Assembly (NCBI RefSeq): GCF_016862635.1 | Contig: NZ_BONI01000096.1 | Location: forward strand, 1-32,280 | Direction of reading: 5' to 3' | DNA: 32,280 nucleotides | From: Catellatospora coxensis | GTDB taxonomy: Bacteria; Actinomycetota; Actinomycetes; Mycobacteriales; Micromonosporaceae | Shown here: positions 3,351 through 20,356 of the stretch, in pieces | How the letters are laid out: the number at the start of each line of letters is the position of its first letter | Position numbering within the stretch: position 1 is the first letter of the stretch | Made by a program: the position numbers and the translations under genes | The notes under the pieces: generated by a model | What the model was told of the DNA's origin: nothing | The model's database searches: none | Seen by the model: the letters and a program-made list of their open reading frames with translations, nothing else

Positions 3351-3989
3351 TCAGGCCTCGGCGGCCACGGTCTCCTCGGCCTCGGCAGCCTCGGCCTCGG
3401 CGGCCTCCGGAGCCTCGGCGGCCTCGCCCTCGAGCTGCTCGGCGGTCGGGGCCAGGCTCACCACAGCGACGATGGTCTCGGCGTCGGCGACCAGCTGCGC
3501 GCCACGCGGGAGCTTGATGTCACCGGCGGTGACGTGCGAGCCGGCCTCCAGGCCCTCGATCGAGGCCTCGACGAACTCCGGCAGGTGCAGCGCCTCGGCC
3601 GCGATGGAGATCTTGTCGTGCTCGGTCATCACGAGGGTGCCCTTGGCGGCCTCGCCGACCAGGTGCACCGGAATCTCGACGGTGACCTGCTCGCCGCGCT
3701 TCACGATGACCAGGTCGATGTGCTCGTAGGTGTCCTTCAGCGGGTCACGCTGGATGGCCTTCGGCAGGGCGAGGGTCTTGGCGCCGTCGGGGCCGACCAG
3801 CTCGAACACGGTGTTGATGCCACCGTGGCGGATCGCGGCGGCGAACTCACGGGCCGGGACGGCGATGTGGCGCGGGGCCTCACCGTGGCCGTAGACGACG
3901 GCGGGCACGAGACCCGCGCGGCGGGTGCGGCGCGCGCCGCCCTTGCCGAACTCGGTACGCGGCTCGGCGCTGATCTTTACTTCAGACAC
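3351..3989 (-). CDS. rplY: 50S ribosomal protein L25/general stress protein Ctc
   Basis: 212 residues from the GTG at 3989. L25 binds 5S rRNA in the large ribosomal subunit. The N-terminal L25 domain (about 1-95) has the typical [16 protein letters not shown] and [11 protein letters not shown]. The TL5/Ctc beta domain follows to about 180 ([29 protein letters not shown]), and the C-terminus is a low-complexity Glu/Ala tail. A longer frame opens with TTG at 4007, but AGGAG seven bases before the GTG decides the start. prs lies 343 nt upstream and pth 74 nt downstream, the standard actinobacterial order. Confidence 0.95.
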
Positions 3990-4332
3990 GATTCTTCTCC
4001 TGCTCAACGGGTCTCTGTCAGGCCGAGCGAACGAGGGCGCGCGGGGTAACCATGACCCGGAGCACCGCGTCGATCACGGCGCCATCAACAGGCTTTTCGA
4101 CCCGCAGGGCACCCTCGCCGTGGCAACCCGATTACTGTACCCGATCACTTTCGGTGATCCCCGGCGGGGCGGCTCAAATCACCCCAGCTCCGCGCACCTG
4201 CGGCCCACCGCACTTCACATCGACGTTGGCCTATCACATCGAGAAATCACCACTCGAATTCGATGTGATAGGCCAACGTCGATGGCAGGACGGTCTACGG
4301 CGCGAGCGCCCCCGACTGCGCGGAGCGGACGG
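3990..4332. other. prs-rplY intergenic region (343 bp)
   Basis: I see no convincing gene here. It holds the long inverted repeat at 4218-4284, a small perfect hairpin (GATCAC-TTTCG-GTGATC, 4143-4159), and the rplY ribosome-binding site. A possible minus-strand -10 (TACAGT, plus-strand 4131-4136) lies beside the small hairpin but has no clear -35. The gap is long for two genes in the same direction, so rplY-pth probably has its own promoter here. Confidence 0.5.
4218..4284. repeat. Dispersed long inverted repeat, copy 1
   Basis: Two perfect 25-bp arms (4218-4242 and 4260-4284) flank a 17-nt loop. The arm reads CATCGACGTTGGCCTATCAC followed by ATCGA. The same arm, with few changes, recurs at 13989-14045 and 22135-22193, while the loops are unrelated. 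This copy begins 48 nt past the prs stop codon. It is AT-richer than its surroundings, has no T-tract and no target-site duplication that I can see. Confidence 0.92.
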
Positions 4333-5313
4333 TCAGCTGAGGCCGCCGAAGAGGGTCGTGACGGAGCCGTCGTCGAAGACCTCGCGGATCGCGCGGGCCA
4401 GCAGCGGGGCGATCGACAGCACGGTCAGCTTGTCGAACTGCTTGTCCGAGCCCAGCGGCAGCGTGTTGGTGACGATGACCTCGCTGATCCGGCTGTTCTT
4501 CAGGCGCTCGGTCGCCGGGTCGGAGTGCACGGCGTGCGTCGTGGTCACGATGACGTCCGCGGCCCCGTTGTCGAACAGGATGTCGGCGGCCTTGCAGATG
4601 GTGCCCGCAGTGTCGATCATGTCGTCGACCAGGATGCAGGTGCGCCCCGCGACCTCGCCGATGACCCGGTTCGCGACGACCTGGTTCGGCTTGAGCGGGT
4701 CGCGGGTCTTGTGGATGAACGCCAGCGGGCAGCCGCCCAGGCGGTCGGTCCAGCGCTCACCGACGCGCACCCGGCCCGAGTCGGGCGACACCACGGTCAG
4801 CTCGCGGTGGCCGTAGTTGGCCTGTACGTAGTCGGCCAGCACGTCCATCGCGAACAGGTGGTCCACCGGGCCGTCGAAGAAACCCTGGATCTGCGCGGTG
4901 TGCAGGTCGACGGTCAGGATGCGGTTCGCGCCGGCCGTCTTGAGCAGGTCCGCGATGAGGCGGGCGGAGATCGGCTCCCGGCCGCGGTGCTTCTTGTCCT
5001 GGCGCGCGTACGGGTAGAACGGCAGCACCACGGTGATGCGCTTGGCCGAGCCGCGCTTGGCCGCGTCCACCATGAGCAGGGTTTCCATGATCCAGTTGTT
5101 CACCGGCTGGCTCATGGACTGGACGATGAAGGCGTCCGAACCACGGACGGACTCCTTGTAACGGACAAACGTCTCACCGCTGGCGAAGTCGTATGCCGTC
5201 GTCGGGGTCACCCCCACGCCCAGCACCTCGCCGATCTCCTTCGCGAGCTCGGGGTAGGCCCGGCCCGAGAAAAGCATCAGGTTCTTGCGGTTCTCAGTGA
5301 CGATGCTGCCCAT
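4333..5313 (-). CDS. prs: Ribose-phosphate pyrophosphokinase (PRPP synthetase)
   Basis: 326 residues, typical length. It makes PRPP from ribose-5-phosphate and ATP for purine, pyrimidine, histidine, tryptophan and NAD synthesis, and in actinobacteria also for the arabinose donor decaprenyl-phosphoryl-arabinose. Visible motifs are the flexible-loop and ATP region PFYPYARQDKKHRGREPISA, DLHTAQIQGFF, and the PRPP-binding loop CILVDDMIDTAGTI. The ATG at 5313 follows a GAAGGGG ribosome-binding site. glmU lies upstream in the same direction, but the antisense HTH gene and a strong bidirectional terminator separate them. prs therefore probably uses its own promoter near 5347-5352. Confidence 0.96.
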   Translation of the reverse strand: MGSIVTENRKNLMLFSGRAYPELAKEIGEVLGVGVTPTTAYDFASGETFVRYKESVRGSDAFIVQSMSQPVNNWIMETLLMVDAAKRGSAKRITVVLPFYPYARQDKKHRGREPISARLIADLLKTAGANRILTVDLHTAQIQGFFDGPVDHLFAMDVLADYVQANYGHRELTVVSPDSGRVRVGERWTDRLGGCPLAFIHKTRDPLKPNQVVANRVIGEVAGRTCILVDDMIDTAGTICKAADILFDNGAADVIVTTTHAVHSDPATERLKNSRISEVIVTNTLPLGSDKQFDKLTVLSIAPLLARAIREVFDDGSVTTLFGGLS

Positions 5314-5346
5314 CGGCTTGCCGCCCCTTCACGATGGTCTGCGGTC

Positions 5347-5352
5347 AGTATC
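5347..5352 (-). promoter_or_regulatory. Candidate -10 element for prs
   Basis: The minus strand reads GATACT here, a good -10 match that would give a leader of about 27 nt before the prs ATG. No convincing -35 is seen at 17-18 nt spacing, so this is a weak prediction. Confidence 0.35.
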
Positions 5353-5472
5353 ACCTTTTCGGTTCATCCTCTCCCGGCGGTTCGCCAACCGGCCAGCAAG
5401 CCCGTTCCCGGGTGCGACAGATCACGGACAGACCGCTTGCCCTGGAGTTCACGCAGGTGACACCGGGGTGCC

Positions 5473-5502
5473 TTGCCCGGCCCCGACAGCGGGCGCTACC
5501 TT
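5473..5502 (+). promoter_or_regulatory. Candidate promoter for the small LuxR-type HTH gene
   Basis: TTGCCC (5473-5478), an 18-nt spacer and TACCTT (5497-5502) resemble a primary-sigma promoter. It would give a leader of about 32 nt containing the ribosome-binding site GAAAGG at 5526-5531, nine bases before the ATG at 5541. Confidence 0.5.
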
Positions 5503-5540
5503 CGTTAAGCACAAGTGCCCGTACAGAAAGGCTGCGCTCG

Positions 5541-5780
5541 ATGGCCAGGGACCGGTCCGGAGAACCGACGCTCGTTCAGCGCCGGATCCTCCTGCTGCTC
5601 GCCGCGGGCTTCACCGTGCAGACCATCACCAAACTGGTCTTCCTCAGCGAGCGCGCCGTGCACGACCACATCGCCAGCCTCAAGCAGACCACCGGCGCGA
5701 AGAACCAGTTCTCCCTCGGGGCCGAGGCCGCCAAGCGCGGCTGGCTCGAGGACGAGGACGAGCAGCCCGGCCGCCGCTGA
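5541..5780 (+). CDS. Small orphan LuxR-type helix-turn-helix protein
   Basis: 79 residues, essentially a single GerE/LuxR DNA-binding domain with no receiver or sensor domain. The helices read LVQRRILLLLAAGFTVQTIT, then KLVFLSERAVHDHIASLKQT, then NQFSLGAEAAKRGWL, which fits the LuxR pattern (recognition helix ..LSERAVHDHI..). The C-terminus is acidic (EDEDEQ). A longer frame opens upstream, but GAAAGG before the ATG at 5541 and the domain boundary support this start. It lies antisense between prs and glmU, with its own candidate promoter and a terminator at 5804-5834. Its targets are unknown; autoregulation or control of the flanking genes is only a guess. Confidence 0.8.
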   Translation: MARDRSGEPTLVQRRILLLLAAGFTVQTITKLVFLSERAVHDHIASLKQTTGAKNQFSLGAEAAKRGWLEDEDEQPGRR

Positions 5781-5803
5781 CCCGGCCCGCACTCCGCAGA
5801 CGA

Positions 5804-5834
5804 AAAGGCGCGACCCCCGCGGGGTCGCGCCTTT
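5804..5834. terminator. Strong bidirectional terminator
   Basis: A perfect 14-bp stem (AAAGGCGCGACCCC / GGGGTCGCGCCTTT) closes a 3-nt loop, with A and T runs on the two outer ends. It lies between the converging ends of the HTH gene (5780) and glmU (5851), so it can serve both strands. Confidence 0.9.
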
Positions 5835-5850
5835 CGCAAACTCGTGCCGG

Positions 5851-7290
5851 TCAGCCTTCCCCGGCGGCCGGGTGCTCCGCCGCCTCGGCCCGCTCGGCAG
5901 CCTCCGCCGCCGCGCTGCCCGGACGGGACCGGCGCACCCAGCCCTCGATGTTGCGCTGGTGCGCCCGCGCCACCGCCAGCGCCCCCGGCGGCACATCCTT
6001 GTCGATCACCGAACCGGCCGCCGTGTACGCGCCGTCGCCGACCTGCACCGGCGCCACGAACGTCGTGTCACAGCTCGTCTTCACGTGCGAGCCGATCACC
6101 GTGTGGCTCTTGGTGCTCCCGCTGTAGTTCGCGAACAGGTTGCCCGCGCCGATGTTGGTCTGCTCGCCGATCGTCGCGTCACCCACGTACGTCAGGTGCG
6201 GCACCTTGGTGCCCTCGCCCAGCGACGCGTTCTTGATCTCGACGAACGTGCCGACCTTGCCCTTGCGCCCGATCCGCGCCCCCGGCCGCAGGTACGCGTA
6301 CGGCCCCACGGACACGTTCGGGCCGATCTCGGCCTGCACCGCGTGCGCGCGTACCACCTGGGCCTGCTCGCCCACGATCGTGTCGATCAGCGTCACGTCC
6401 GGACCCACCACCGCGCCCGTGCCGACGCTGGTCGCCCCGCGCAGCTGCACGTTCGGCTCCAGCAGCGCGTCGCGCTCCACGGTCACCGTGGCGTCGACCC
6501 AGGTCGTGGCCGGGTCGACGATGGTCACGCCGTCGCGCATCAGCCCGAGGTTGATCCGGTCGCGCAGCAGCGCCCGCAGCGTCGCCAGCTCGGCCCGGTC
6601 GTTGCAGCCCAGCGTCTCGGTCGCGTCGGCGGCCAGGTGCACGCGCACCGGCGAGCCCTCCGTGACGAACAGCTCGAAGACGTCGGTGAGGTACTCCTCG
6701 CCCTGGTCGTTGTCGGTGGTCAGCTTCGCCAGCGCGGTCCGCAGCGCGGCCGCGTCGAAGGCGTAGATGCCCGCGTTGATCTCGCGGATCGCCCGCTGCT
6801 CCGGCGTCGCGTCGCGCTCCTCAACGATGCGGGCCAGCCCGCCGTCGGCGTCGCGCACCAGCCGGCCCAGGCCGGTCGGGTCCGGCACGGACGCGCCCAG
6901 CACGGTCGCCGCCGCGCCCGCCGCCTCGTGCGCCTCGACCAGGTCCTGCAGCGTCTGCGCCCGCAGCAGCGGCACGTCGCCGTTGAGCACGACCACGGTG
7001 CCGTCGAGCTCACCGAGCGCCTCGACGGCGATGCGGACCGCGTGGCCCGTGCCGTTCTGCTGGGCCTGCAGCGCGGTCGCCACATCCGGCGCGATCTCGG
7101 CGAGGTGTGCGGTGACCTGGTCGGCACGGTTGCCGACGACGGCCAGGGTGCGCTCGGCACCGAGCGGGGCGGCGGCGGCGAGCACGTGGCCCACCAGGGA
7201 GCGGCCGAGCAGCGGGTGCAGCATCTTCGGCAGATCCGACTTCATCCGCTTACCCTCGCCAGCCGCGAGGACGATCACCGTACGAGTCAC
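5851..7290 (-). CDS. glmU: Bifunctional UDP-N-acetylglucosamine pyrophosphorylase / glucosamine-1-phosphate N-acetyltransferase
   Basis: 479 residues. It makes UDP-GlcNAc for peptidoglycan and other glycans by acetylating glucosamine-1-phosphate and transferring UMP. The N-terminal nucleotidyltransferase domain (about 1-230) shows VLAAGEGKRMKSDLPKMLHP, QQNGTGHAV and LNGDVPLL. The C-terminal left-handed beta-helix (about 250-450) shows hexapeptide repeats and the catalytic region RPGARIGRKGKVGTFVEIKN with HLTYVGDATIGE. The GTG at 7290 is preceded by AGGAG. tRNA-Gln ends 31 nt upstream on the same strand, so the two may share a transcript. It ends against the terminator at 5804-5834. Confidence 0.96.
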   Translation of the reverse strand: MTRTVIVLAAGEGKRMKSDLPKMLHPLLGRSLVGHVLAAAAPLGAERTLAVVGNRADQVTAHLAEIAPDVATALQAQQNGTGHAVRIAVEALGELDGTVVVLNGDVPLLRAQTLQDLVEAHEAAGAAATVLGASVPDPTGLGRLVRDADGGLARIVEERDATPEQRAIREINAGIYAFDAAALRTALAKLTTDNDQGEEYLTDVFELFVTEGSPVRVHLAADATETLGCNDRAELATLRALLRDRINLGLMRDGVTIVDPATTWVDATVTVERDALLEPNVQLRGATSVGTGAVVGPDVTLIDTIVGEQAQVVRAHAVQAEIGPNVSVGPYAYLRPGARIGRKGKVGTFVEIKNASLGEGTKVPHLTYVGDATIGEQTNIGAGNLFANYSGSTKSHTVIGSHVKTSCDTTFVAPVQVGDGAYTAAGSVIDKDVPPGALAVARAHQRNIEGWVRRSRPGSAAAEAAERAEAAEHPAAGEG

Positions 7291-7321
7291 GAGCTGCCCA
7301 TCTCCTTACTTGGCTTGCTAG

Positions 7322-7393
7322 CTGGGGCGCCTGGATTCGAACCAGGACCTTCCAGATTCAAAGTCTGGTGAGCTGCCATTACTCCACGCCCCA
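7322..7393 (-). tRNA. tRNA-Gln (anticodon TTG)
   Basis: 72 nt on the minus strand. The acceptor stem TGGGGCG/CGCCCCA pairs fully. The anticodon stem CCAGA/TCTGG carries the loop CTTTGAA (anticodon TTG, reading CAA/CAG), and the T arm contains GGTTCGAATCC. The discriminator base is G and the 3' CCA is not encoded. A possible -10 (TAAGCT, plus-strand 7405-7410) overlaps the end of the upstream gene. Confidence 0.96.
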
Positions 7394-7407
7394 TCCGGCG
7401 CCAAAGC

Positions 7408-8118
7408 TTATCGTGGTTCGCCCGCGGACGCTGCACCGGTGCGGCGATCGAGTTCGTCGATGATCCCCTCGATCCGCCAATAGAGTTCCCGCCTGCGCCG
7501 TGCGGTCACCACGAGGCAGCCGTGGTATCCCTCTCCCTGGTTGTGTCGCGTGCTGGTGGGACGGTGCCGCTTCATGGTCGCTTTGCGGAAGCACTCCAGC
7601 GGCACGTCGAGCTCGGCAGCCCACCAGCGCGCCGCCTCATCAGGATCGGCGGTCTCGTGGATGCTCACGCGGTAGCTGAGTTCACTGCGGCTGACGCCGA
7701 CCGACTCCAGAAACCGGATAAAGATCCGCAGCAGGCGGGGATCCGTATTGGTGATCGTCACACGGCCGTCGTTGGCCCGCCAGGGCTTCTCCTTGGTCCC
7801 CTCACACCAGAAAATCACCGCGCCCAGCAGCGCGAGATCCCGCTCGGTCAGCTCCTCGACGACCGCTTGCCCGACGTCCCGTGCGCCCTGTCTGCGCTGC
7901 GCGGTCTGCACCCGGTGCGTTCCCCAGCGCGCGTCGGTCATGGCACGCGAGTGCGCACGCCGACGCTCGGCTGCCCCGACATCCGAGTCGAGGGGGATGT
8001 GACGGACCCACTGGAAGGCGGTGGACCGGGCGACGCCCAGCCTCGACGCGATGTCCGGCACCGAGCATCCCGCCTGGCGCAACACCACTGCCTGTTCGCG
8101 AAGTTCCGGCTTGGCCAC
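7408..8118 (-). CDS. HTH protein with C-terminal LAGLIDADG-like domain, function unknown
   Basis: 236 residues starting with GTG. Residues 1-40 form a Hin/homeodomain-like HTH (QAVVLRQAGCSVPDIASRLG, then VARSTAFQWVRH). Residues about 90-225 resemble a single LAGLIDADG-type domain: LALLGAVIFWCEGTKEK with an acidic residue in the expected place, then ITNTDPRLLRIFIRFLESVG, and further on YHGCLVVTARRRRELYWRIE. Such pairings are common in actinobacterial chromosomes, usually annotated as hypothetical or homing-endonuclease-like. Neither an intein nor an interrupted host gene is visible, so a domesticated regulator is as likely as a nuclease. The spacing to tRNA-Gln is 14 nt. No clear ribosome-binding site precedes the GTG. 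Confidence 0.72.
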   Translation of the reverse strand: MAKPELREQAVVLRQAGCSVPDIASRLGVARSTAFQWVRHIPLDSDVGAAERRRAHSRAMTDARWGTHRVQTAQRRQGARDVGQAVVEELTERDLALLGAVIFWCEGTKEKPWRANDGRVTITNTDPRLLRIFIRFLESVGVSRSELSYRVSIHETADPDEAARWWAAELDVPLECFRKATMKRHRPTSTRHNQGEGYHGCLVVTARRRRELYWRIEGIIDELDRRTGAASAGEPR

Positions 8119-8177
8119 TCGGTGACGATAGAACAGGCGTACGACCCTTTGTGCGGGAAATTCACAGAGACGGGATC

Positions 8178-8215
8178 TGTCAAACTACGGTCCCGTAGGT
8201 TACGGTGTCGTAGGT
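8178..8215 (+). promoter_or_regulatory. Desaturase promoter with tandem operator-like repeats
   Basis: A candidate promoter, TGTCAA (8178-8183), a 17-nt spacer and TACGGT (8201-8206), is overlaid by two adjacent 15-bp repeats: TACGGTCCCGTAGGT (8186-8200) and TACGGTGTCGTAGGT (8201-8215). They are identical at 13 of 15 positions. The first contains the perfect inverted repeat CTACGG-TC-CCGTAG (8185-8198) and the second TACG-GTGT-CGTA. This is a typical form for a TetR-family operator, and the TetR gene lies directly downstream of the desaturase. Confidence 0.65.
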
Positions 8216-8255
8216 AGTACAAACCAGTGCCTTCCCCCAGCTCCAGCGAGGTGCC

Positions 8256-9245
8256 ATGACCACGACAGCCATCGACACGCCTACCGGCACCGCGGCGCCT
8301 GCTCGCGGGCAGAAGCCGCTGACCGAGGGAGCCCAGTCCAAGGGCACCTTGATCGGGCTCTGGGCCTTCGTGGTCCTGCCGTTCCTGGCGCTGTTCGCTG
8401 TGGTCCCGGTCGCCTGGGGCGGCTGGCTCAACGTCACCGACGTGGTGATCTTCGCGGTGATGTACGTGGTGACCGGCCTCGGCATCACGGTCGGCTACCA
8501 CCGCTACCTGACGCACAGCTCGTTCAAGGCGACGCGCTGGCTGCGCGTGACGCTGGCGGTCTCCGGCGCGATGGCCGTGCAGGGCTCGCCGACCCAGTGG
8601 GTCGCCGACCACCGCCGCCACCACCAGTACTCCGACCTGGAGGACGACCCGCACTCGCCGTGGCGCTTCGGCAACTCGTTCAAGGGCCTGACCAAGGGCA
8701 TGTTCCACGCCCACGTGGGCTGGCTGTTCGCCCGCGAGCTGTCCAACCGCACCCGGTTCGCGCCGGACCTGCTGGCCGACAAGGACATCGCCAAGGTCGA
8801 CAAGATGTTCGGCCTGCTGTCGCTGACCACCGCGTTCGCGCCGGCCGTCGTCGGCGGTCTGGTGACCATGTCGTGGCAGGGCGCGCTGACCGCGTTCTTC
8901 TGGGCGGGCCTGATCCGTATCGGCCTGCTGCACCACGTCACCTGGGCCATCAACTCGGTCTGCCACGTGTACGGCGAGCGCCCGTTCGAGATGCGCGAGG
9001 GTGACAAGGCCTCGAACTTCTGGCCGCTGGCGATCCTGTCGTTCGGTGAGAGCTGGCACAACCTGCACCACTCGGACCCGACCTGTGCCCGGCACGGCGT
9101 GATGCGCGGTCAGATCGACATCTCGGCCCGGGTGATCTGGCTGTTCGAGAAGTTCGGCTGGGCGACGAACGTCAAGTGGCCCAAGGTGGACCGGCTCCAG
9201 GCGAAGATGATCGACCGCGACGCCGAGCTCAAGCTGGCCCGGTGA
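8256..9245 (+). CDS. Acyl-CoA/fatty acid delta-9-type desaturase
   Basis: 329 residues. This is an integral membrane di-iron enzyme that introduces a cis double bond into saturated acyl chains to tune membrane fluidity. The three histidine boxes of the stearoyl-CoA desaturase family are intact: HRYLTH (82-87), HRRHH (119-123) and HNLHH (268-272). Two pairs of hydrophobic segments lie at about 32-80 and 185-230. The TetR gene follows, with its likely GTG 57 bp past the desaturase stop, so the two are probably cotranscribed. A tandem operator-like element overlaps the promoter. Chain-length preference and electron donor cannot be read from the sequence. Confidence 0.93.
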   Translation: MTTTAIDTPTGTAAPARGQKPLTEGAQSKGTLIGLWAFVVLPFLALFAVVPVAWGGWLNVTDVVIFAVMYVVTGLGITVGYHRYLTHSSFKATRWLRVTLAVSGAMAVQGSPTQWVADHRRHHQYSDLEDDPHSPWRFGNSFKGLTKGMFHAHVGWLFARELSNRTRFAPDLLADKDIAKVDKMFGLLSLTTAFAPAVVGGLVTMSWQGALTAFFWAGLIRIGLLHHVTWAINSVCHVYGERPFEMREGDKASNFWPLAILSFGESWHNLHHSDPTCARHGVMRGQIDISARVIWLFEKFGWATNVKWPKVDRLQAKMIDRDAELKLAR

Positions 9246-9301
9246 CCGTCGACACGACGGGCACCCCCTCGCCGCCCCCGTCCTCCTGGCAGGATGGGGG
9301 C

Positions 9302-9982
9302 GTGGCAGACGACACCCGCGACGTCCGGCCGGCCGGGCGCCAGGCAGCCGTGCCGAAGACCGGCTCACGGGTGCGGATGAGTTTCTCCCAGCGGCGCGAG
9401 CAGCTGATCGCCGTGGGGCGGCAGCTGTTCGCCGAGCGCGGTTTCGACGCGACCTCGATCGAGGAGATCGCCTCCCGCGCCAAGGTCTCCAAACCTGTGG
9501 TGTACGAGCACTTCGGCGGGAAAGAAGGCCTGTACGCCGTCGTGGTGGACCGCGAGGTCACCTCCCTGCTGACCCGGGTCACCTCGGCGCTGACCGCGGG
9601 GCATCCGCGTGAGCTGCTGGAGCAGGCGGCGCTGGCGCTGCTGGACTACATCGAGGAGGAGACGAACGGCTTCCGCGTGCTGGTGCGCGAGTCGCCGGTG
9701 ATGTCCTCTTCGGGCAACTTCTCGTCGGTGCTCAATGATGTCGCGCACCAGGTGGAGCACATCCTCGGCGCGGAGTTCAAGACCCGGGGCTACGACCCGA
9801 AGCTCGCGGAGCTGTACTCGCAGGCCCTGGTGGGCATGGTGGCGCTGACCGGCCGCTGGTGGCTGGAGGTGCGCAAGCCGCGCAAGGAGACGGTGGCCGC
9901 GCACCTGGTGAACCTGTGCTGGAACGGCCTGGCACAGCTGGAGGCCAAGCCGGTCCTGCTGACCCGCAAGGGCAACAAGTAA
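9302..9982 (+). CDS. TetR family transcriptional regulator
   Basis: 226 residues from the GTG at 9302, which has AGGA at 9291-9294 as ribosome-binding site. A second in-frame GTG at 9242 overlaps the desaturase stop (GTGA) and would add 20 residues; it lacks a clear ribosome-binding site. The TetR N-terminal domain reads RREQLIAVGRQLFAERGF, then DATSIEEIASRAKVSKPVVY and EHFGGKEGLYAVV. The C-terminal ligand and dimer domain (to about 215) contains WWLEVRKPRKE and resembles regulators of fatty-acid genes such as FasR. Its position next to the desaturase suggests that it controls membrane unsaturation through the repeats at 8186-8215. The ligand is likely an acyl-CoA, by inference only. Confidence 0.9.
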   Translation: MADDTRDVRPAGRQAAVPKTGSRVRMSFSQRREQLIAVGRQLFAERGFDATSIEEIASRAKVSKPVVYEHFGGKEGLYAVVVDREVTSLLTRVTSALTAGHPRELLEQAALALLDYIEEETNGFRVLVRESPVMSSSGNFSSVLNDVAHQVEHILGAEFKTRGYDPKLAELYSQALVGMVALTGRWWLEVRKPRKETVAAHLVNLCWNGLAQLEAKPVLLTRKGNK

Positions 9983-10016
9983 CGTCGCCCGCGGTGGCCG
10001 GCGAGCATGTCACCGC

Positions 10017-10511
10017 TTACTTGTTGGCGTGCGGTTTGACAGCGAACTTGTCGCCGGGGCGGGTGCTGTGGCGCAGCACCTCTTCGGCGATGGACTCGGC
10101 CGGGGTGCCGACTTTGCCGTACAGCCCGGCGATCAGCATGATCGTGCCGATGATGAACGAGACCACGCAGGTGGAGATCTCGTAGTTGAGCTTGTTCAGC
10201 GGCGTCTGCATGACGGTGAGCATGATGAGCCCGGCCAGCAGGAAGACCGCGCCGCCCCAGATGTTGATGAAGTGGTCGACGTTGCGGCCGATGATCGCGC
10301 CGCCGAGCACGATCGCGCCGACGATGATGGACAGCCAGGCGAACGCCGGGTTGGTCTTCAGGCCGAGCGCCTCGGTGTCGCCGCGGCTGAAGAAGGGCTC
10401 ACCTGCGGTTCGGATGGCCCCGACGATGCCGAAGATCAGCAGGTACGCGCCCGACAGTCCCGCCAGGAAGCGCCACTGAGGCCTTAGCCGGTGATTGACC
10501 GGGATATGCAT
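10017..10511 (-). CDS. DUF4383 family membrane protein, copy A
   Basis: 164 residues from the ATG at 10511. Four hydrophobic segments are visible: FLAGLSGAYLLIFGIVGAI, then FAWLSIIVGAIVLGGAII, then FINIWGGAVFLLAGLIMLTV, and ISTCVVSFIIGTIMLIAGLY. The N-terminal motif HIPVNHRLRP and the GRNVDHFINIWGG segment are characteristic of DUF4383, an actinobacterial membrane family of unknown function. It is a tandem paralogue of the gene at 10562-11023, which it follows with a 10-bp hairpin in the gap. A longer frame upstream overlaps that neighbour and is rejected. It converges with the TetR gene across a 34-bp gap. Confidence 0.85.
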   Translation of the reverse strand: MHIPVNHRLRPQWRFLAGLSGAYLLIFGIVGAIRTAGEPFFSRGDTEALGLKTNPAFAWLSIIVGAIVLGGAIIGRNVDHFINIWGGAVFLLAGLIMLTVMQTPLNKLNYEISTCVVSFIIGTIMLIAGLYGKVGTPAESIAEEVLRHSTRPGDKFAVKPHANK

Positions 10512-10520
10512 GACCCCAGT

Positions 10521-10547
10521 GTCCCGCCGGGAGTGTCCCGGCGGGAC
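10521..10547. terminator. Hairpin between the two DUF4383 genes
   Basis: A perfect 10-bp inverted repeat (GTCCCGCCGG / CCGGCGGGAC) encloses a 7-nt loop. It lies in the 50-bp gap between the two paralogues and just upstream of the second start codon. It could be a terminator, an attenuator or an mRNA stability element. There is no T-tract. Confidence 0.55.
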
Positions 10548-10561
10548 CGGTTCGCGGCAAA

Positions 10562-11023
10562 TCAGGCGGTGCCGTGGCGGTGCTTCTCCTCGGCGACGGC
10601 CTTGGCGGCCGAGCCGACCTTGACGTACATGCCGGCGGTGAACAGGACCGATCCGATGAGGTACGAGACGATGCAGGTCGCCATCGTGAAGTTGAGCACG
10701 TTCGAGTCGGTGTGCATGAGCGCCAGCATCGCGGTGCCCACGAGCAGGAACCCGGCGCCGACCCACATGTCGATGAAGCGGTCCAGGTTGCGGCCGACCA
10801 GCGTGGCCAGCAGGACGGCGGCACCGGCGCCGATGCTCGCGTACGAGAAGAGGGGGTTGGTCTTCAGCCCGAGCGCGCTGGCGTCACCCTGGTTGAGCAG
10901 CGGCTCACCCTGGCTGTCGAGGTAGCCGAGCAGCCCGAACGCCAGCACGAACAGCCCGGCGAGCAGGGCCAGCCCACGGTAGAGCGGGCGCAGGGAGTGG
11001 TTGACGGGCATGTGGGAAGCCAT
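10562..11023 (-). CDS. DUF4383 family membrane protein, copy B
   Basis: 153 residues. It has the same four-helix layout as its neighbour: PLYRGLALLAGLFVLAFGLL, then FSYASIGAGAAVLLATLV, then FIDMWVGAGFLLVGTAMLAL, and TCIVSYLIGSVLFTAGMY. The shared HMPVNHSLRP start and ALGLKTNP.F motif show that the two arose by duplication. The ATG at 11023 has GGAG seven bases before it. A -10-like TAGCCT (plus-strand 11064-11069) lies inside the loop of the terminator that ends the upstream ABC-F unit. Function is unknown. Confidence 0.88.
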   Translation of the reverse strand: MASHMPVNHSLRPLYRGLALLAGLFVLAFGLLGYLDSQGEPLLNQGDASALGLKTNPLFSYASIGAGAAVLLATLVGRNLDRFIDMWVGAGFLLVGTAMLALMHTDSNVLNFTMATCIVSYLIGSVLFTAGMYVKVGSAAKAVAEEKHRHGTA

Positions 11024-11046
11024 GTCGCAGCTCCGGCGGGTACGAG

Positions 11047-11087
11047 GGGTCAGGGGATGCGTGAGGCTATCAGGCCTCCCCTGACCC
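11047..11087. terminator. Terminator after the ABC-F gene, overlapping a candidate promoter
   Basis: A perfect 11-bp stem (GGGTCAGGGGA 11047-11057 / TCCCCTGACCC 11077-11087) closes a 19-nt loop that has its own short GAGGC/GCCTC pairing. It lies 20 nt past the ABC-F stop. The loop holds TAGCCT on the minus strand, a plausible -10 for the DUF4383 pair. Confidence 0.75.
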
Positions 11088-11107
11088 GCGACCCGCCAGT
11101 GCGGGAG

Positions 11108-12907
11108 CTATTCCGAGATCAGCTCCGCGAGGTTGAGCCACTCGTCTTCGAGCAGCCCGCGCTCGTCCTGCAGCGCTTTGAGGCTCGCGTCCAACTCGGC
11201 GATCTTCGCGAAGTCGGTGGCGTGCTCGGCCATCTGCGCATGCAGCTTCTCCACGCGCTGGTCGAGCTTGTCGATCTGGCGCTCGACCCGCGAGACCTCC
11301 TTCTTCGCAGCCCGCACCTCGGCCGCGCTGGGCCCGCCGGTGCGTTCGGCCCTCGGCTCCTTGGCCGGGGCCGCCGCGCCGCCGCCGGGAGCCGCGTCGT
11401 GGTCGACCCGCTCCAGGTACTCGTCGACGCCGCCGGGCAGGTGCCGGATCTTGGCGTCGCCGAGCAGTCCGTACACCTTGTCGCAGACGCGCTCGACCAG
11501 GTAGCGGTCGTGGCTGGCCACGATCATCGTGCCGGGCCAGGTGTCGAGCAGGTCTTCCAGCGAGGCCAGGGTGTCGGTGTCGAGGTCGTTGGTGGGCTCG
11601 TCGAGGATCAGCACGTTCGGCTCGCCGGCGAGCAGGCGCAGCAGTTGCAGCCGCCGCCGCTCGCCGCCGGACAGGTCGGCGACCGGGGTCCACACCCGGC
11701 GGTCGGTGAAGCCGAAGATCTCGGCGAGCTGCGACGCCGACAGTTCCCGGTCGCCGAGCTTGACCCGCCGGGCGACCTGCTCGACGGCTTCCAGCAGCCG
11801 CAACTCGCCGGGCAGTTCCGCGAGTTCCTGGGACAGGAACGCGGGCCGCACCGTCTGGCCGGCGCGGAAACCGGCCGCGTCGGTGACCCTGGCCAGCAGC
11901 CGCAGCAGCGTCGACTTGCCCGCGCCGTTCGCGCCGAGCAGGGCGATCCGGTCGCCGGGGCCGACGTGCCAGGTGACGTCGTCGAGGATCAGCTTCGGCC
12001 CGGCGTACAGGGTGACGTTCTCCAGGTCGTAGACCTGGCGGCCGAGCCGGGCGGTGGCCAGCTTGGCCAGGGTGACCTGGTCGCGCGGGGCGGGCACGTC
12101 GGCGATGAGCGCGTTCGCGGCGTCGATGCGGAACTTCGGCTTGGAGGTGCGGGCCGGCGGTCCGCGGCGCAGCCAGGCGATCTCCTTGCGGAGCAGGTTC
12201 TGGCGGCGGGACTCGGTGACCGCGGCGACCCGTTCCCGCTCGGCGCGGGCCAGGATCCACGCGGCGAAGCCGCCGTCGTACGCGCGTACCTGCTGGTCGG
12301 CGACCTCCCAGATGCGGTTGCAGACGGCGTCGAGGAACCACCGGTCGTGGGTGACCACGACGAGCGCGCCGCGCAGGCTCTGGTTGAGGTAGCGGGCCAG
12401 CCAGTTGACGCCCGCGATGTCGAGGTGGTTGGTGGGCTCGTCGAGGATCAGCAGGTCGGTCGGGCGCACCAGCAGGGCGGCCAGCGCGATGCGCCGCCGC
12501 TCGCCGCCGGACATCGGCCCGACGGGCTGGTCGAGCCCGAGGCCGGGCATGCCGAGGCCGTCGAGGATGTTGCGGACGCCCGCGTCGCCGGCCCATTCGT
12601 GCTCGGCCTGGAACGCGGCGGGCAGCCAGGCGTCGCCGAGCACCACGTCGCGCACGGTCAGGTCGGGGGCCAGCTCGAGCGCCTGTGGCAGCGCGGACAC
12701 GCGCAGGTCGCGGCGGTGCGTGACGCGCCCCGAGTCGGGTTCCTCGAACTTGGTCAGCATGCGCAGCAGGGTCGACTTGCCCGCGCCGTTGAGGCCGACC
12801 ACGCCGATCCGGTCGGCGTCGTCCAGACCCAGGGAGACGTCGGTGAGCAGCGGGCCGGTCGGGCCGTAGCCCTTGCTCACCCGGTCGAGATTGATGATGT
12901 TGGCCAT
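11108..12907 (-). CDS. ABC-F family ATPase (Uup/EttA-like, ribosome-associated)
   Basis: 599 residues with two ATP-binding cassettes and no membrane segments. Cassette 1 has Walker A GLNGAGKST, signature MSGGERRR and Walker B LLILDEPTNHLD. Cassette 2 has Walker A GANGAGKST, signature LSGGERRR and Walker B VLILDEPTNDLD. A linker rich in Arg and Lys joins them, and a C-terminal coiled coil (about 525-590, VERQIDKLDQRVEKLHAQMA) resembles Uup. ABC-F proteins act on the ribosome in translation control or antibiotic protection; which applies here is open. It starts 7 nt past ispE, so it is cotranscribed. A terminator follows at 11047-11087. Confidence 0.92.
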   Translation of the reverse strand: MANIINLDRVSKGYGPTGPLLTDVSLGLDDADRIGVVGLNGAGKSTLLRMLTKFEEPDSGRVTHRRDLRVSALPQALELAPDLTVRDVVLGDAWLPAAFQAEHEWAGDAGVRNILDGLGMPGLGLDQPVGPMSGGERRRIALAALLVRPTDLLILDEPTNHLDIAGVNWLARYLNQSLRGALVVVTHDRWFLDAVCNRIWEVADQQVRAYDGGFAAWILARAERERVAAVTESRRQNLLRKEIAWLRRGPPARTSKPKFRIDAANALIADVPAPRDQVTLAKLATARLGRQVYDLENVTLYAGPKLILDDVTWHVGPGDRIALLGANGAGKSTLLRLLARVTDAAGFRAGQTVRPAFLSQELAELPGELRLLEAVEQVARRVKLGDRELSASQLAEIFGFTDRRVWTPVADLSGGERRRLQLLRLLAGEPNVLILDEPTNDLDTDTLASLEDLLDTWPGTMIVASHDRYLVERVCDKVYGLLGDAKIRHLPGGVDEYLERVDHDAAPGGGAAAPAKEPRAERTGGPSAAEVRAAKKEVSRVERQIDKLDQRVEKLHAQMAEHATDFAKIAELDASLKALQDERGLLEDEWLNLAELISE

Positions 12908-12914
12908 GATCCGA

Positions 12915-13871
12915 TCAGCCTATCCGGGCGCCGTGCACGGCTCCGTACGCCTGCTGCACGCCGCGGCACAGGCCGGACTCCCGCAGCGCCTGGGCGAGGT
13001 CTGCCCCGTGGGGCTCGTCACGGGCCAGGAAGACGCAGGTCGGGCCGCTGCCGGAGACCAGGCTGGCGAGCGCGCCCGCCTTGTCGCCGACGTCGAGCGT
13101 GTCGGCCAGCGAGGGCCGCAGCGACAGGGCGGCGGCCTGCAGGTCGTTGCCGAGCGCCGCGCCGAGCACGGCCGGGTCGCGCTGCCGCAGCGCGCTGAGC
13201 AGGTCGTCGCTGCTGCCCAGCGGGGCGGGCGCGGTGCCGGCGGCGCGCATCCGGTCCAGTTCGCCGTAGACCCGCGGGGTGGACAGGCCGCCGTCGGCGA
13301 ACGCCACCACCCAGTGCCACTTGTTGGCGCGGGCGAGCACGGGGCTGACCGCCTCGCCGTGGCCGGTGCCCAGCGCGGTGCCGCCGTACAGCAGGAACGG
13401 CACGTCGGAGCCGAGCGTGGCGGCGATCCGGGCCAGCTCGTCGCGGCCCAGGCCGGTGCCCCAGAGCACGTCGAGGGCGACCAGGGTCGCGGCGGCGTCG
13501 GCGGAGCCGCCGGCCAGGCCGCCCGCGAGCGGGATCGTCTTGCGCAGGTGCAGCCGGGCGTGCGCGGGCACCTTGGCGGCCGCGGCCAGCGCGTGCGCGG
13601 CGCGGATCACCAGGTTGCTGTCGTCGAGCTCCAGCTCGCCGACGCCCTCGCCCTGCATGGTCAGGCTGAGCGTGTCCCCGGACCGCGCGGTGACCTCGTC
13701 GTACACCGAGATGGCGTGGTACACGGTGTGCAGCTCGTGGTAGCCGTCGGAGCGCAGCGGCCCGACCCCGAGGTGCAGGTTGATCTTGGCGGGCACTCTC
13801 ACCCGGACCGGTCCTGACGAGGCTCCCGCCAGGTCATCGTCGTCGTCGCCGAGCGTCCATGCCTCTGTCAC
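12915..13871 (-). CDS. ispE: 4-diphosphocytidyl-2-C-methyl-D-erythritol kinase
   Basis: 318 residues from the GTG at 13871. It phosphorylates CDP-methylerythritol in the non-mevalonate isoprenoid pathway, which supplies undecaprenyl phosphate and other lipids. GHMP-kinase motifs are visible: VRVPAKINLHLGVGPLRSDG, the ATP loop PLAGGLAGGSADAAATL, and SGSGPTCVFLA. The frame stays open to 14042, but that extension runs into the inverted repeat at 13989-14045 and is not family-like. The start is supported by a TACGCT -10 element seven bases upstream, as in leaderless genes; there is no good ribosome-binding site. It lies between ksgA (upstream) and the ABC-F gene, in conserved order. Confidence 0.94.
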   Translation of the reverse strand: MTEAWTLGDDDDDLAGASSGPVRVRVPAKINLHLGVGPLRSDGYHELHTVYHAISVYDEVTARSGDTLSLTMQGEGVGELELDDSNLVIRAAHALAAAAKVPAHARLHLRKTIPLAGGLAGGSADAAATLVALDVLWGTGLGRDELARIAATLGSDVPFLLYGGTALGTGHGEAVSPVLARANKWHWVVAFADGGLSTPRVYGELDRMRAAGTAPAPLGSSDDLLSALRQRDPAVLGAALGNDLQAAALSLRPSLADTLDVGDKAGALASLVSGSGPTCVFLARDEPHGADLAQALRESGLCRGVQQAYGAVHGARIG

Positions 13872-13878
13872 GCCGACC

Positions 13879-13884
13879 AGCGTA
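13879..13884 (-). promoter_or_regulatory. Candidate -10 for a leaderless ispE transcript
   Basis: The minus strand reads TACGCT, then 7 nt, then the GTG of ispE, which would place the transcript start at or beside the first codon. The -35 is not recognisable. This fits the absence of a ribosome-binding site. Confidence 0.45.
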
Positions 13885-13988
13885 CTGGCCCCGCCCGGAT
13901 CACCCGGCGGCGCAGCACCCCGCTCCCACATGCCCGGCCACGGGCCCGCGCCGCCCCTGCCGGGCCTCTCCCGCCGCGCCTCGCATAA

Positions 13989-14045
13989 ACGTTGGCCTAT
14001 CTCATCGAATTCGATCGCCCGGAATTCGATGTCATAGGCCAACGT
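13989..14045. repeat. Dispersed long inverted repeat, copy 2
   Basis: Arms at 13989-14012 and 14022-14045 pair at 22 of 24 positions around a 9-nt loop. They begin ACGTTGGCCTAT as in copy 1. The two mismatches fall together: the left arm has CTATCTCATC where copies 1 and 3 have CTATCACATC, and the complement of the right arm has CTATGACATC. It lies in the ksgA-ispE gap, 41 nt past the ksgA stop. The rest of that 215-bp gap holds only the ispE start region. Confidence 0.9.
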
Positions 14046-14086
14046 CGATCAAAAGCCGGAACGCGACGGCGCACGCCCCGCGCAGG

Positions 14087-14944
14087 TCACTGCTTCGCGG
14101 CGGCCAGGGCGGCGAACGCGTGCACGTCGAGCTGCTCGCCGCGCGCGGACGGGTCGATTCCTGCCTTGCGCAGCAAGGCCTCCGCAGCCGGCGCGCCCCC
14201 GGCCCAGCCCGCCAGCGCGGCCCGAAGCGTCTTGCGGCGCTGCGCGAATGCCGCGTCGACCACCGCGAACACGGCGTCGCGGGACACGTCGTCGCGGGGC
14301 GGCTCGCGGCGGGTGAACGAGACCAGGCCCGAGTCCACGTTGGGCACCGGCCAGAACACCGCGGGCGGCACCTTGCCGGCCTGGCGGGACGAGGCGTACC
14401 AGGCGAGTTTCACCGACGGGATGCCGTAGATCTTGTTGCCGGGCTGGGCGGTGAGCCGGTCGGCGACCTCCTTCTGCACCATGACCAGCCCGTGCCGGAT
14501 GCTCGGCAGTTCGGCGAGCAGGTGCAGCACCACCGGCACGGCGACGTTGTACGGCAGGTTCGCCACCAGCGCCGTGGGCGGCGGGTCGAACTCGGCGGCG
14601 GTGATCCGCATGGCGTCGCCATTGTGGACGGTGAGCCGGTCGGCGAGCCCGGGGGCGCGTTCGGCGGCGGTCGCGCCGAGCGCGGCGGCCAGCGGCGGGT
14701 CGATCTCCACCGCGTGCACGTGCGCGGCGGCGCTGAGCAGGCCCAGGGTCAGAGAGCCCAGGCCGGGGCCGACCTCGACGGCGACGTCGGCCGGGTCGAG
14801 TTCGGCGGCGGCCACGATGCGCCGGATGGTGTTGGGGTCGTGCAGGAAGTTCTGCCCGAGCTTCTTGGTCGGCGCGACGCCGAGCCGCGCGGCCAGCTCC
14901 CGGATCTCCGCCGGGCCGAGCAGTCTTGCCTGTTCAACGGTCAC
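14087..14944 (-). CDS. ksgA: 16S rRNA dimethyladenosine transferase (RsmA/KsgA)
   Basis: 285 residues starting with GTG. It dimethylates the two adjacent adenosines in the 3'-terminal helix of 16S rRNA late in small-subunit assembly; loss gives kasugamycin resistance. The N-terminal [14 protein letters not shown], the SAM-binding [11 protein letters not shown], and the catalytic [11 protein letters not shown] are all present, with the C-terminal [12 protein letters not shown] region. A TAGCCT element (plus-strand 14951-14956) ends 6 nt before the start, so the mRNA may be leaderless. It is followed by copy 2 of the long inverted repeat and then ispE. In many actinobacteria rpfB precedes it; here a P450 gene does. 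Confidence 0.96.
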
Positions 14945-14996
14945 CCCCTCAGGCTATCGGGCCGCCCGTGTCGGCACGCTGTCGCAGCGGGCGGGA

Positions 14997-16325
14997 TCAG
15001 GGCCGGGTGCGGACCGTCATGTGCAGGCCGCCCTTGGGCCGGATCGTCGCCTGCCCGGACAGTCGGGCGGGCCGGCCGGAGACCGGTTCCAGGGTGACCC
15101 GGGGCACCAGGGTGGCCAGCACCAGCGCGATCTCGGCCTCGGCGAAGCGGTTGCCGACGCAGATCCGCGGGCCGTCGCCGAACGGCAGGTACGCCTCGCG
15201 CGAGACCTCGGCCCCGGGGGCGAAGCGCTCGGGCCGGAACTCCTCGGGCTCCGGCCAGTACGCCGGGTCGGTGTGGATGACGTACGGGCTGAAGAACAGG
15301 ATCTGCCCCGCCTTGACGGTGTGCCCGCCGAGCCGCGTGTCGGCGACCGGGGTGCGGTCGAACAGCCAGCCCGGGGGCCAGCGGCGCAGCGTCTCCTTCA
15401 CGACCTGGCCCAGGTAGGGCAGGTTCGGCAGGTCGGCCATGGTGGCGGGGCGCTCGCCGAGCACCTCGGCGACCTCGGCGCGCAGCCTCTCCACGATCTC
15501 CGGGTGCCGGCCCAGCTCGTAGAACGCCCAGGTCAGGGCGGTCGCACTGGTCTCGTGGCCGGCGAAGAACATGGTCAGCAGCTCGTCGCGGATCTCGGTG
15601 TCGGTCAGCGCCGGGCCGCCCTCGGGGTCCTTCGCGCTGATCAGCATCGAGAGCAGGTCGCCGCCGTCGCCGCCCTGCTCGCGGCGGCGCCGGATCAGCT
15701 CGTACGACAGCCGGTCCGTCCGGGCCACGCTGGCCTTGCGCCACCGGTGCGTCTTCGTGGGCACCCAGCCGGGCAGCAGCCCGAAGGAGAGCAGGTAGGC
15801 GTTGAGCGAGTTGACGAAGTCGTGCACCGCGGCGAACACCTCGTCGCCGTCGTCGTCCACGGTGAACAGGGACTGCCCGACGATGCGCAGGGTCAGCCGC
15901 GTCATCTCCTCGACGACCTCGACGCGCTGCCCGTCGACCCAGGAGCCGAGCAGGCGCCGCGACTCGCCGACCATGATCTCGCCGTACCGCGCGATGCGCT
16001 GGGTGTGCAGGCTCGGCAGCACCAGGCGGCGGTGCCGGCGGTTCTCCGCGCCCTCGCGGGTGAGCAAGCCGTCGCCGACGTGGCCCTGCAGCAGCCGGGT
16101 GGTGCGCCACGACTTGGCGAACTCCTGCGGCCGCTTGACCAGCATCTCGTGCACCAGCACCGGATCGGCGACGAGCAGCATCGACAGCGGGCCCATCCGC
16201 ACCCGGCTCACCGGCCCCATGGTGCGGGCCGTGTGCTGCAGGAAGCCCGGCATGTCGCGGTTCATCTCGCGCAGGTTGCCGAGCAGCGGCAGGCCGGGCG
16301 GGGAGGGGATGGTCTCCGTCGTCAC
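14997..16325 (-). CDS. Cytochrome P450
   Basis: 442 residues from the GTG at 16325. This is a haem monooxygenase with all core signatures: I-helix AGHETSATAL (from residue 255), K-helix ETLRRW (311-316) and the haem-binding loop FGDGPRICVG with the ligand Cys at 389. The N-terminus is proline-rich (PSPPGLPLLGNL), with no strong membrane anchor, so it is probably soluble. Substrate and redox partner are unknown, and no ferredoxin gene is adjacent. The frame continues to a GTG at 16355, directly beside the tatD stop; TAACCT seven bases before the 16325 GTG favours the shorter form. It lies between tatD and ksgA, where rpfB is usual in relatives. Confidence 0.93.
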   Translation of the reverse strand: MTTETIPSPPGLPLLGNLREMNRDMPGFLQHTARTMGPVSRVRMGPLSMLLVADPVLVHEMLVKRPQEFAKSWRTTRLLQGHVGDGLLTREGAENRRHRRLVLPSLHTQRIARYGEIMVGESRRLLGSWVDGQRVEVVEEMTRLTLRIVGQSLFTVDDDGDEVFAAVHDFVNSLNAYLLSFGLLPGWVPTKTHRWRKASVARTDRLSYELIRRRREQGGDGGDLLSMLISAKDPEGGPALTDTEIRDELLTMFFAGHETSATALTWAFYELGRHPEIVERLRAEVAEVLGERPATMADLPNLPYLGQVVKETLRRWPPGWLFDRTPVADTRLGGHTVKAGQILFFSPYVIHTDPAYWPEPEEFRPERFAPGAEVSREAYLPFGDGPRICVGNRFAEAEIALVLATLVPRVTLEPVSGRPARLSGQATIRPKGGLHMTVRTRP

Positions 16326-16332
16326 ATCGACG

Positions 16333-16338
16333 AGGTTA
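16333..16338 (-). promoter_or_regulatory. Candidate -10 for a leaderless P450 transcript
   Basis: The minus strand reads TAACCT followed by 7 nt and the GTG at 16325. The -35 is weak. If real, the P450 has its own promoter 18 nt past the tatD stop and is not simply part of a tatD operon. Confidence 0.45.
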
Positions 16339-16355
16339 GACGTCCCCCGCGACAC

Positions 16356-17210
16356 TCACCAGGGTCCGAAGATCCGGTTCCCGTTGTCCGAGATCGCCTC
16401 GCACATCTCGGCCAGCGGCATGCCCTTGGCCTCGGCAAGCGCCCGCACCGTCAGCGGGATCAGGTAGGAGGCGTTGGGCCTGCCCCGAAACGGCATCGGC
16501 GTCAGGTAGGGCGCGTCGGTCTCGACCAGGATCTGGCGGGGCGGGGTCAGCGCCGCCGCCGCCCGCAGCTGCGGGGCGTTCTTGAAGGTGACCGTGCCGG
16601 CGAAGGACAGCACGAAGCCGCGCCGCACGCACTCGGCGGCGAACGCCTCGTCGCCGGAGAAGCAGTGCATCACCACGGTCTCGGGCGCGCCCTCGTCGTC
16701 GAGCACCCGCAGGATGTCGGCGTGGGCGTCGCGGTCGTGGATGACCAGCGGCTTGCCGACCCGCTTGGCCAGCGCGATGTGGGCCCGGAAGCTGCGTTCC
16801 TGCGGCCGCAACCCCTCTTCCCTGGTACGGAAGAAGTCCAGGCCCGTCTCGCCGATGCCACGCACCCGCGGGTCCTCGGCCAGCGCCGCGATCTCGGCGA
16901 GCGCCGCGTCCAGGTCGGACAGGCGCGGGGCCTCGTTCGGGTGCAGCGCCACGGTGGCGACGACGGCGGGGTGCTCGGCGGCGCAGGCCACGCCCCAGCG
17001 CGACGACTTCACGTCGACACCCACCTGCACCAGCCGGTCCACGCCGACCTTCGCGGCCGCGTCGATCTGGGTGGCCGGGTCGCCGCCGTCCTCGGCGACG
17101 ATGTCGAGGTGGGTGTGGCTGTCCAGCACCGGGTGCGGCAGCGGCTCCGGGGCGGGCGGGAAGGACTCCCAGCGGCGTTCGGCGGCCCGCGCGGCGCGAT
17201 CGTTCGTCAC
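16356..17210 (-). CDS. tatD: TatD family metal-dependent deoxyribonuclease
   Basis: 284 residues starting with GTG. TatD proteins are TIM-barrel hydrolases acting as 3'-5' exonucleases or in DNA repair. Metal-binding motifs are intact: DSHTHLD, GIGETGLDFF, VIHDRDAHAD, MHCFSGD and VETDAPYLTP. Length is slightly above the usual 260 because of an N-terminal extension of about 25 residues. An ATG six bases further upstream is closed at once by an in-frame TGA, so the GTG at 17210 is the likely start. In many actinobacteria it neighbours metG, rpfB and ksgA; here an unrecognised divergent gene separates it from metG and a P450 follows it. Confidence 0.93.
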   Translation of the reverse strand: MTNDRAARAAERRWESFPPAPEPLPHPVLDSHTHLDIVAEDGGDPATQIDAAAKVGVDRLVQVGVDVKSSRWGVACAAEHPAVVATVALHPNEAPRLSDLDAALAEIAALAEDPRVRGIGETGLDFFRTREEGLRPQERSFRAHIALAKRVGKPLVIHDRDAHADILRVLDDEGAPETVVMHCFSGDEAFAAECVRRGFVLSFAGTVTFKNAPQLRAAAALTPPRQILVETDAPYLTPMPFRGRPNASYLIPLTVRALAEAKGMPLAEMCEAISDNGNRIFGPW

Positions 17211-17302
17211 CCGGCCATGATCCCACCCGGCGCTGCCGTCGGTGAGCGGACCGTCTCGTTGCGAGGTCGATCACCCTGCGCGCGGCCTTCTGTTCAGTCC
17301 GT

Positions 17303-17332
17303 GTTCACCTGGGCGGCACGCGCGGATATTAA
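17303..17332 (+). promoter_or_regulatory. Candidate promoter of the 410-residue hypothetical gene
   Basis: GTTCAC (17303-17308), an 18-nt spacer and TATTAA (17327-17332) resemble a primary-sigma promoter. The GTG start follows 11 nt after the -10, so the leader would be only a few nucleotides. Confidence 0.5.
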
Positions 17333-20348: not shown

Positions 20349-20356
20349 GACTAACC

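Follow-up and report, generated by a model that had tools for sequence, protein, structure and literature searches.

High-copy hairpins of nearly fixed length behind stop codons in the genus Catellatospora

Three long inverted repeats lie behind stop codons in a stretch of 32,280 nucleotides of Catellatospora coxensis DNA (the window, by which we mean the whole stretch analysed), and they raise the question of whether they belong to a larger family of hairpins and what such a family would do at the ends of genes. Below we describe the three elements, follow their copies through the genus and weigh the roles that these copies may have.

Three hairpins and their copies in the genus

The elements and the genes around them are as follows.

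3351-3989, minus strand: ribosomal L25 gene, adjoining the gap of element 1
4215-4287, no strand: element 1 with outer arms, 3' of the prs stop and ahead of the L25 gene
4227-4275, no strand: element 1 core, 49 nt, TGGCCTAT..ATAGGCCA, with a 17-nt interior at 4243-4259
4333-5313, minus strand: prs, stop at 4333
7322-7393, minus strand: tRNA gene (Rfam)
12915-13796, minus strand: GHMP-kinase gene, probably ispE, adjoining the gap of element 2
13981-14053, no strand: element 2 with outer arms, 3' of the ksgA stop and ahead of the GHMP-kinase gene
13993-14041, no strand: element 2 core, 49 nt, two arm pairs mismatched, with a 17-nt interior at 14009-14025
14087-14944, minus strand: ksgA, stop at 14087
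20461-22107, plus strand: gene of a 548-aa protein without Pfam match, stop at 22107
22128-22200, no strand: element 3 with outer arms, in the convergent gap between the 548-aa protein gene and the rsmI-like gene
22140-22188, no strand: element 3 core, 49 nt, with a 17-nt interior at 22156-22172
22312-23142, minus strand: rsmI-like gene, convergent with the 548-aa protein gene
24872-24945, minus strand: tRNA gene (Rfam)

All three hairpins were found where the original prediction had placed them, and its distances to the three stop codons are correct. The elements fold strongly on the plus strand (z -12.1, -7.2 and -11.2 for elements 1, 2 and 3, as single-stranded DNA against dinucleotide shuffles), the stem of element 1 comprising 25 pairs. 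The loops of 17, 9 and 15 nt that had been given for them turned out to reflect the extent of extra pairing, and in a common register each element has, apart from small changes, the arm AT.GACG.TGGCCTAT...CATCGA, followed by an interior of 17 nt and by the arm in reverse. A search of the window against Rfam placed no family above its gathering score at the elements; the models drawn by element 1 at relaxed limits, mainly of microRNA hairpins, lay far under their thresholds and were rejected. A simple terminator scan of positions 4100-23200 returned five sites (3.9 in shuffles, sd 2.1), none of them inside the elements, which it could hardly detect because it permits only loops of 3-8 nt. One of the five sites lies between the ksgA stop and element 2 (14080-14057, minus strand).

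The expectation of many more copies per genome was amply borne out. The genome that contains the window (G000) has 9.35 Mb in 222 contigs. With up to two mismatches allowed, 108/110 matches to the 16-nt arm were counted in it (2/0 for the reversed control), and there are 107 exact core pairs TGGCCTAT..ATAGGCCA with 18-48 nt between them (none for the reversed control), where three copies only would have told against a family. Other species of the genus hold 134 (G009), 62 (G010), 56 (G005), 55 (G006) and 16 (G003) exact core pairs; G002 and G007 hold one each, together with at least 17 and at least 14 RNA-model rows, respectively, both strands counted. RNA-model matches were obtained in all 11 genomes of Catellatospora, a genus of the Micromonosporaceae, and an exact-pattern scan of named genomes matched only Catellatospora sichuanensis (11 stretches). 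Outside the genus the RNA model matched at least four of 239 family genomes, RNA-model counts being minima throughout because they come from the best 150 candidates at most per genome (19 at most in the 250-genome run), and the exact arm pattern was present in two of 289 genomes. The matches in genus g66 are short relatives with other spacings, three of the four fetched carrying arms ACGTTGGCCGATC, and the match in G177 is by eye unlike the element. These hairpins, which we call family A, are thus present in high copy and nearly confined to the single genus Catellatospora, rather than spread over the Micromonosporaceae at large (250 and 300 sampled genomes). In the open-licence PMC literature, judged on titles and the starts of abstracts, we found no description of the core, in line with the original prediction.

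Length, arms and interior

The distance from core to core is 49 nt in 90 of the 92 copies read in G000 (50 nt in the other two), a set that leaves out a 93rd match of 82 nt inside a gene, in 79 of the 80 copies of G008 (50 nt in one) and in all 52 copies read in nine other genomes. Off-length copies account for five of the 16 exact pairs in G003 (47, 48, 48, 50 and 50 nt) and, among the matches listed, for one in G004 (50 nt) and one in G006 (47 nt). Orthologous copies differ on average at 10 of the 17 interior positions; the 225 copies used in that comparison were pre-chosen at 49 nt, and the length counts rest on the other sets. The spacing between element and stop codon was equal in only five of 156 orthologous comparisons. 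As substitutions are many and length changes few, the length appears to be under constraint. Neutral decay alone does not fit a length that stayed constant while stop-codon spacings changed in 151 of the 156 comparisons.

Within the arms, GGCCTAT is invariant on both sides in all 90 G000 copies. The conserved ends AT.GACG and CGTC.AT are symmetric and mostly paired, the pairs between CGTC and GACG being the commonest in 78, 90, 90 and 88 of 90 copies, and the whole stem is about 22-28 bp long. Symmetric positions covary in G000 (z 8.0, 4.6 and 5.4 at offsets -1, 9 and 16; 1000 shuffles), and a control confined to the first 24 copies gave weak covariation, 22 of 500 shuffles attaining the observed score and 40 to 377 attaining the other measures. 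Between species the inner arm swaps as a block among CATCGA, CTGGATGA and AGAAGA/AGAGGA types, often remaining self-complementary: in 19 of the 111 orthologous pairs both inner arms are perfect and yet different. The flanks of the G000 copies are T-rich before the stem and A-rich after it, with no T-run after the stem, as had been noted for the three elements.

The loops had been described as unrelated, but comparison of many copies reveals an oriented consensus in the 17-nt interior. It is asymmetric, its positions at offsets 18-21 pairing less than in shuffles (z -4.0 to -5.7) because an oriented motif is present in both orientations. When the interiors are sorted by a two-class model, 65 of 90 in G000 and four of 79 in G008 fall into ATCCGag.C.CGgATTT, and the other 25 and 75, respectively, into gTTCGATCT.C...cAg; GATC is found in 73 of the 79 in G008 and in 27 of the 90 in G000 (p 1.3e-17). 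The interior is thus partly homogenised within species. Its orientation carries no bias to the gene strand in tandem copies (17 of 30) and no clear bias by contig in G008 (23:16 and 23:17). Two elements of G004 about 1.1 kb apart (C2:12985 and 14134) have interiors that are exact reverse complements of one another. Some orthologous interiors look turned around (G004/G010, identity 0.82 flipped versus 0.24 direct), and spacer inversion was considered and dropped, since 7 of 111 orthologous pairs were of this kind against 7.9% of random cross-genome pairs; the direct-orientation class comprised 23 of the 111 pairs against 7.8%.

Gaps that hold the hairpins

The 92 copies in G000 comprise 59 in convergent, 30 in tandem and one in divergent gaps; two lie inside called genes, which may be call errors, so the random placement including gene interiors that would have spoken against a functional family is not what is seen. 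In G008 the 80 copies divide into 48 convergent, 31 tandem and one divergent, with none in genes. Of 77,897 intergenic bp in gaps of 75 bp or more, 15,229 belong to convergent gaps, which nevertheless hold 59 of 90 copies (p 2.6e-21, same pieces). The G000 pieces (709,518 bp) were picked around matches, with five further 20-kb pieces from contigs without listed matches, and are therefore not a random sample; genes were called by our own position-specific GC script and not by a published caller. The upstream stop is the nearer one for 25 of the 30 tandem copies in G000, at a median of 46 nt, and the median distance to the stop in convergent gaps is 45 nt in G000 and 63 nt in G008. An intergenic, genome-wide, REP-like family 3' of genes, as originally predicted, is what these counts describe. 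As for its spread along the chromosome, none of the 80 copies of G008 lies in C1 below 1.38 Mb and two lie in C2 below 1.57 Mb, which may mean that one part of the chromosome is favoured; a weak DnaA_N match is found at C1:4.57 Mb (E 2.8e-4, below the curated cut-off).

Many of the sites are common to several species. With G000 included, the prs gap is filled in nine of 11 genomes, the rsmI gap in seven and the ksgA gap in six, the G003 copy in the last being degenerate by eye. For at least 39 of the 76 copies read in other genomes, G000 has one in the corresponding gap; the number is a lower bound because 32 of the other 37 are without a matching fetched G000 piece and five are partial. Interior identity at shared sites is 0.403 in direct orientation against 0.338 at random (sd 0.016; 111 non-independent pairs from 225 copies, many from the same site), indicating that sites are at least partly inherited and that turnover is large; arm identity (0.866) is no higher than at random (0.860). 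Orientation was the same in 11 of 13 comparisons with G008 and in 20 of 33 with other genomes (13 of 20 sites, p 0.26), and is a weak argument because the sign given to differing interior classes is arbitrary. Re-insertion at the same sites as a general rule is disfavoured by the direct interior identity above chance, together with the 11 of 13 in G008. In the gaps that were inspected, species differ so strongly in their flanks that none offers a clean empty site on which a target-site duplication, as left by a MITE, would show. In G003 the gap between the 548-aa protein gene and rsmI (L132) retains only the left outer end CTTTCCATAGACG, as if the hairpin had been deleted. On the whole, the original interpretation stood as far as a REP-like hairpin family is concerned, and it had missed the 49-nt geometry, the oriented species-specific interior and the sites shared across the genus.

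Gaps without the element may hold other hairpins. Among 13 element-less gaps that are filled in a relative, seven contain another hairpin at z -3.0 or lower (fifty shuffles per gap): the prs gaps of G002 and G007, the rsmI gaps of G002 and G007 (family B) and of G005 (family C), and two gaps of G000. The remaining six, namely all five at ksgA and the rsmI gap of G003, are without a strong hairpin. This set omits two gaps of G000, C8:178747-179814 (roughly 1 kb long and containing a called gene) and C8:102862-103002 (which holds a 50-nt copy and is truly shared). Compared with three mononucleotide shuffles per gap, G000 gaps without the element fold at a median of -8.7 kcal/mol when convergent (n 24) and -3.4 kcal/mol when tandem (n 137), and at 0.1 kcal/mol above the shuffles, i.e. 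with no folding excess, when divergent (n 79).

Two of these other hairpins recur, in counts that are small and that required near-exact cores. Family B is palindromic with arm ACGTCGATCTTGCGCGAACTGT and measures 69 nt from core to core in all 10 cases found, six of them convergent, three tandem and one inside a called gene (L135, L138, six of L302-L313 and two G000 pieces); it is at its most abundant in the two species nearly without family A, its arms numbering 97/99 in G002 and 84/98 in G007, and 0 in G005, G008 and G009. Family C, palindromic with AAGGGCACCTTC..GAAGGTGCCCTT, measures 42 nt from core to core in all seven cases found, five convergent and two at piece edges (L136:17447, L253:1928 and five G000 pieces). 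A further long hairpin, CTTGCCTGGCAC..GTGCCAGGCAAG, occupies G000:C13:15640-15765 where G008 carries family A, and may represent a fourth family.

Possible roles and known systems

We believe there is an even chance that family A is a transposase-less, REP-like hairpin serving gene 3' ends in both directions, as an I-shaped terminator and/or as a stem against 3'-to-5' decay after Rho. Whichever side a transcript comes from, it would typically meet, about 45 nt past the stop codon, a stem of about 22-28 bp that carries an oriented cap, and the hairpin would then act as a terminator without U-tract (I-shaped) and/or block 3'-to-5' decay after Rho termination. The working form would be the RNA hairpin, which would end or protect the RNA, and either a cell factor would read the outer core and the length or a mobiliser would act on the hairpin. 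Such a bidirectional 3'-end structure is supported by the placement, by the paired form and by the other hairpins that take some of these gaps; the core, the length and the cap are not explained by any of this. Several observations argue against it. The T-rich and A-rich flanks are the reverse of those of a canonical terminator, a conserved core, a fixed length and a species-specific interior are all more than a plain terminator requires, and the region behind stop codons is also where a harmless mobile repeat would mainly be tolerated. Furthermore, six of the 13 element-less gaps lack a strong hairpin, the interior is unbiased to the gene strand and pair covariation was weak on the first 24 copies.

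A mobile repeat akin to REPINs or MITEs, moved by a putative hairpin-acting enzyme, without host function and surviving behind stops as the least harmful place, is possible, and we rate it as the less probable account. It would fit the copy number, the REP-like placement, the gain and loss between clades seen at the ksgA gap, the near-loss in G002 and G007, and the interior consensus that differs between species, as with GATC. The asymmetric cap would also suit it by analogy, as IS200-type enzymes read hairpins with an asymmetric cap. No link to an enzyme of the Y1/RAYT type was found: PF01797 has no match in five of the 11 genomes, including the element-rich G005, G009, G006 and G008, and none of nine PF01797 loci in other genomes (about 3.3 kb each) contains a core pair at element spacing, so that an origin from RAYT/Y1 was rejected. 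In G000 the arms occur almost only as short pairs, so a long copy with its enzyme is not expected there; a MITE parent with the same terminal repeats may have disappeared or may sit in another place. The interior identity at shared sites, indicating partial inheritance, also speaks against mobility. The concern that the sequence might be a known transposon end found no substance in the records searched, where element 1 matched neither plasmids nor phages and the main arm type (ATCGA) no viral contig. DNA uptake sequences, which occur as single copies spread over a genome, some as inverted pairs, were rejected, as arms in G000 are nearly always paired.

Of the remaining explanations, a duplex DNA site in which two GGCCTAT half-sites, about four helical turns apart, bind a dimeric nucleoid or gyrase-like protein that handles supercoils between convergent genes, a role that has been proposed for REP elements, is improbable: the invariant half-sites at 49-nt spacing and the strong preference for convergent gaps would suit it, but a paired single strand is indicated by the covariation and by inner arms that were exchanged without loss of pairing (two equal half-sites could change together too), a related copy in G002 (L078) has changed the core itself symmetrically, and the spacing leaves the oriented interior unexplained.

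Returning to the 3'-end hairpin, we also entertain, as a rather doubtful extension, that length-calibrated hairpins mark many gene 3' ends in Catellatospora and perhaps in related actinomycetes. On this view at least three unrelated families (49, 69 and 42 nt) would occupy one type of gap, and sometimes one and the same gap in different species; a dedicated factor might measure their length and recognise the cap, and changes in the factor might then drive species-specific caps at about a hundred sites. How transcripts end without U-tracts in high-GC actinobacteria is not fully settled, and about 100 near-identical gene-end hairpins, abundant in some species and almost lost in their sisters, offer a naturally occurring set on which to test this. 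A cell factor that reads the fixed length, if there is one, would add a new component to RNA 3'-end formation or represent a new kind of hairpin mobiliser that works without RAYT.

Among known systems, the closest in placement are the REP elements. In the portions of PMC3733652 drawn on here, the GTAG and CGTC super-families are high-copy short intergenic palindromes between convergent or unidirectional genes and near stops, with stems of 5-13 bp and one unpaired tag; CGTC families are reported without a dedicated transposase, and untagged REP-like families are named in M. tuberculosis, D. radiodurans and others, the word 'actinobacteria' being absent from the text. Family A shares the high copy number and the position near stops between convergent or tandem genes, and in the broad sense of a high-copy extragenic palindrome so placed it is a REP. 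It differs in its stem of about 22-28 bp, in having CGTC and GACG paired at both ends and in its nearly fixed length; it has neither the unpaired GTAG tag and short palindrome of GTAG REPs nor the unpaired CGTC tag, 8-9 bp stem and 4-5 nt loop of CGTC REPs. REPINs, as characterised in the portion of PMC3116915 used here, are intergenic and hairpin-forming, with two inverted conserved arms around a variable spacer and a sequence population in each genome. The plan of inverted arms around a spacer is shared, whereas the family A arm is not itself palindromic (24-nt consensus arm z 0.18, reverse complement z -1.36 against shuffles), single arms are nearly absent in G000 and many sites are common to several species. 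Family A is thus REP-type in placement and is filed neither as a GTAG REP, nor as a CGTC REP, nor as a REPIN.

The other comparison is with mycobacteria, where, according to the sections consulted of the review PMC12288462, I-shaped terminators lying no more than 50 bp from the stop codon are mostly used and Rho termination dominates. Family A resembles them in belonging to a high-GC actinobacterium and in forming hairpins that lack a U-tract and lie within some 50 nt of the stop, with a median of 45-46 nt in G000 (63 nt in convergent gaps of G008). The mycobacterial terminators are a structural class for which those sections mention no common sequence, whereas about 100 copies of family A share an invariant core, their length and a consensus for the interior.
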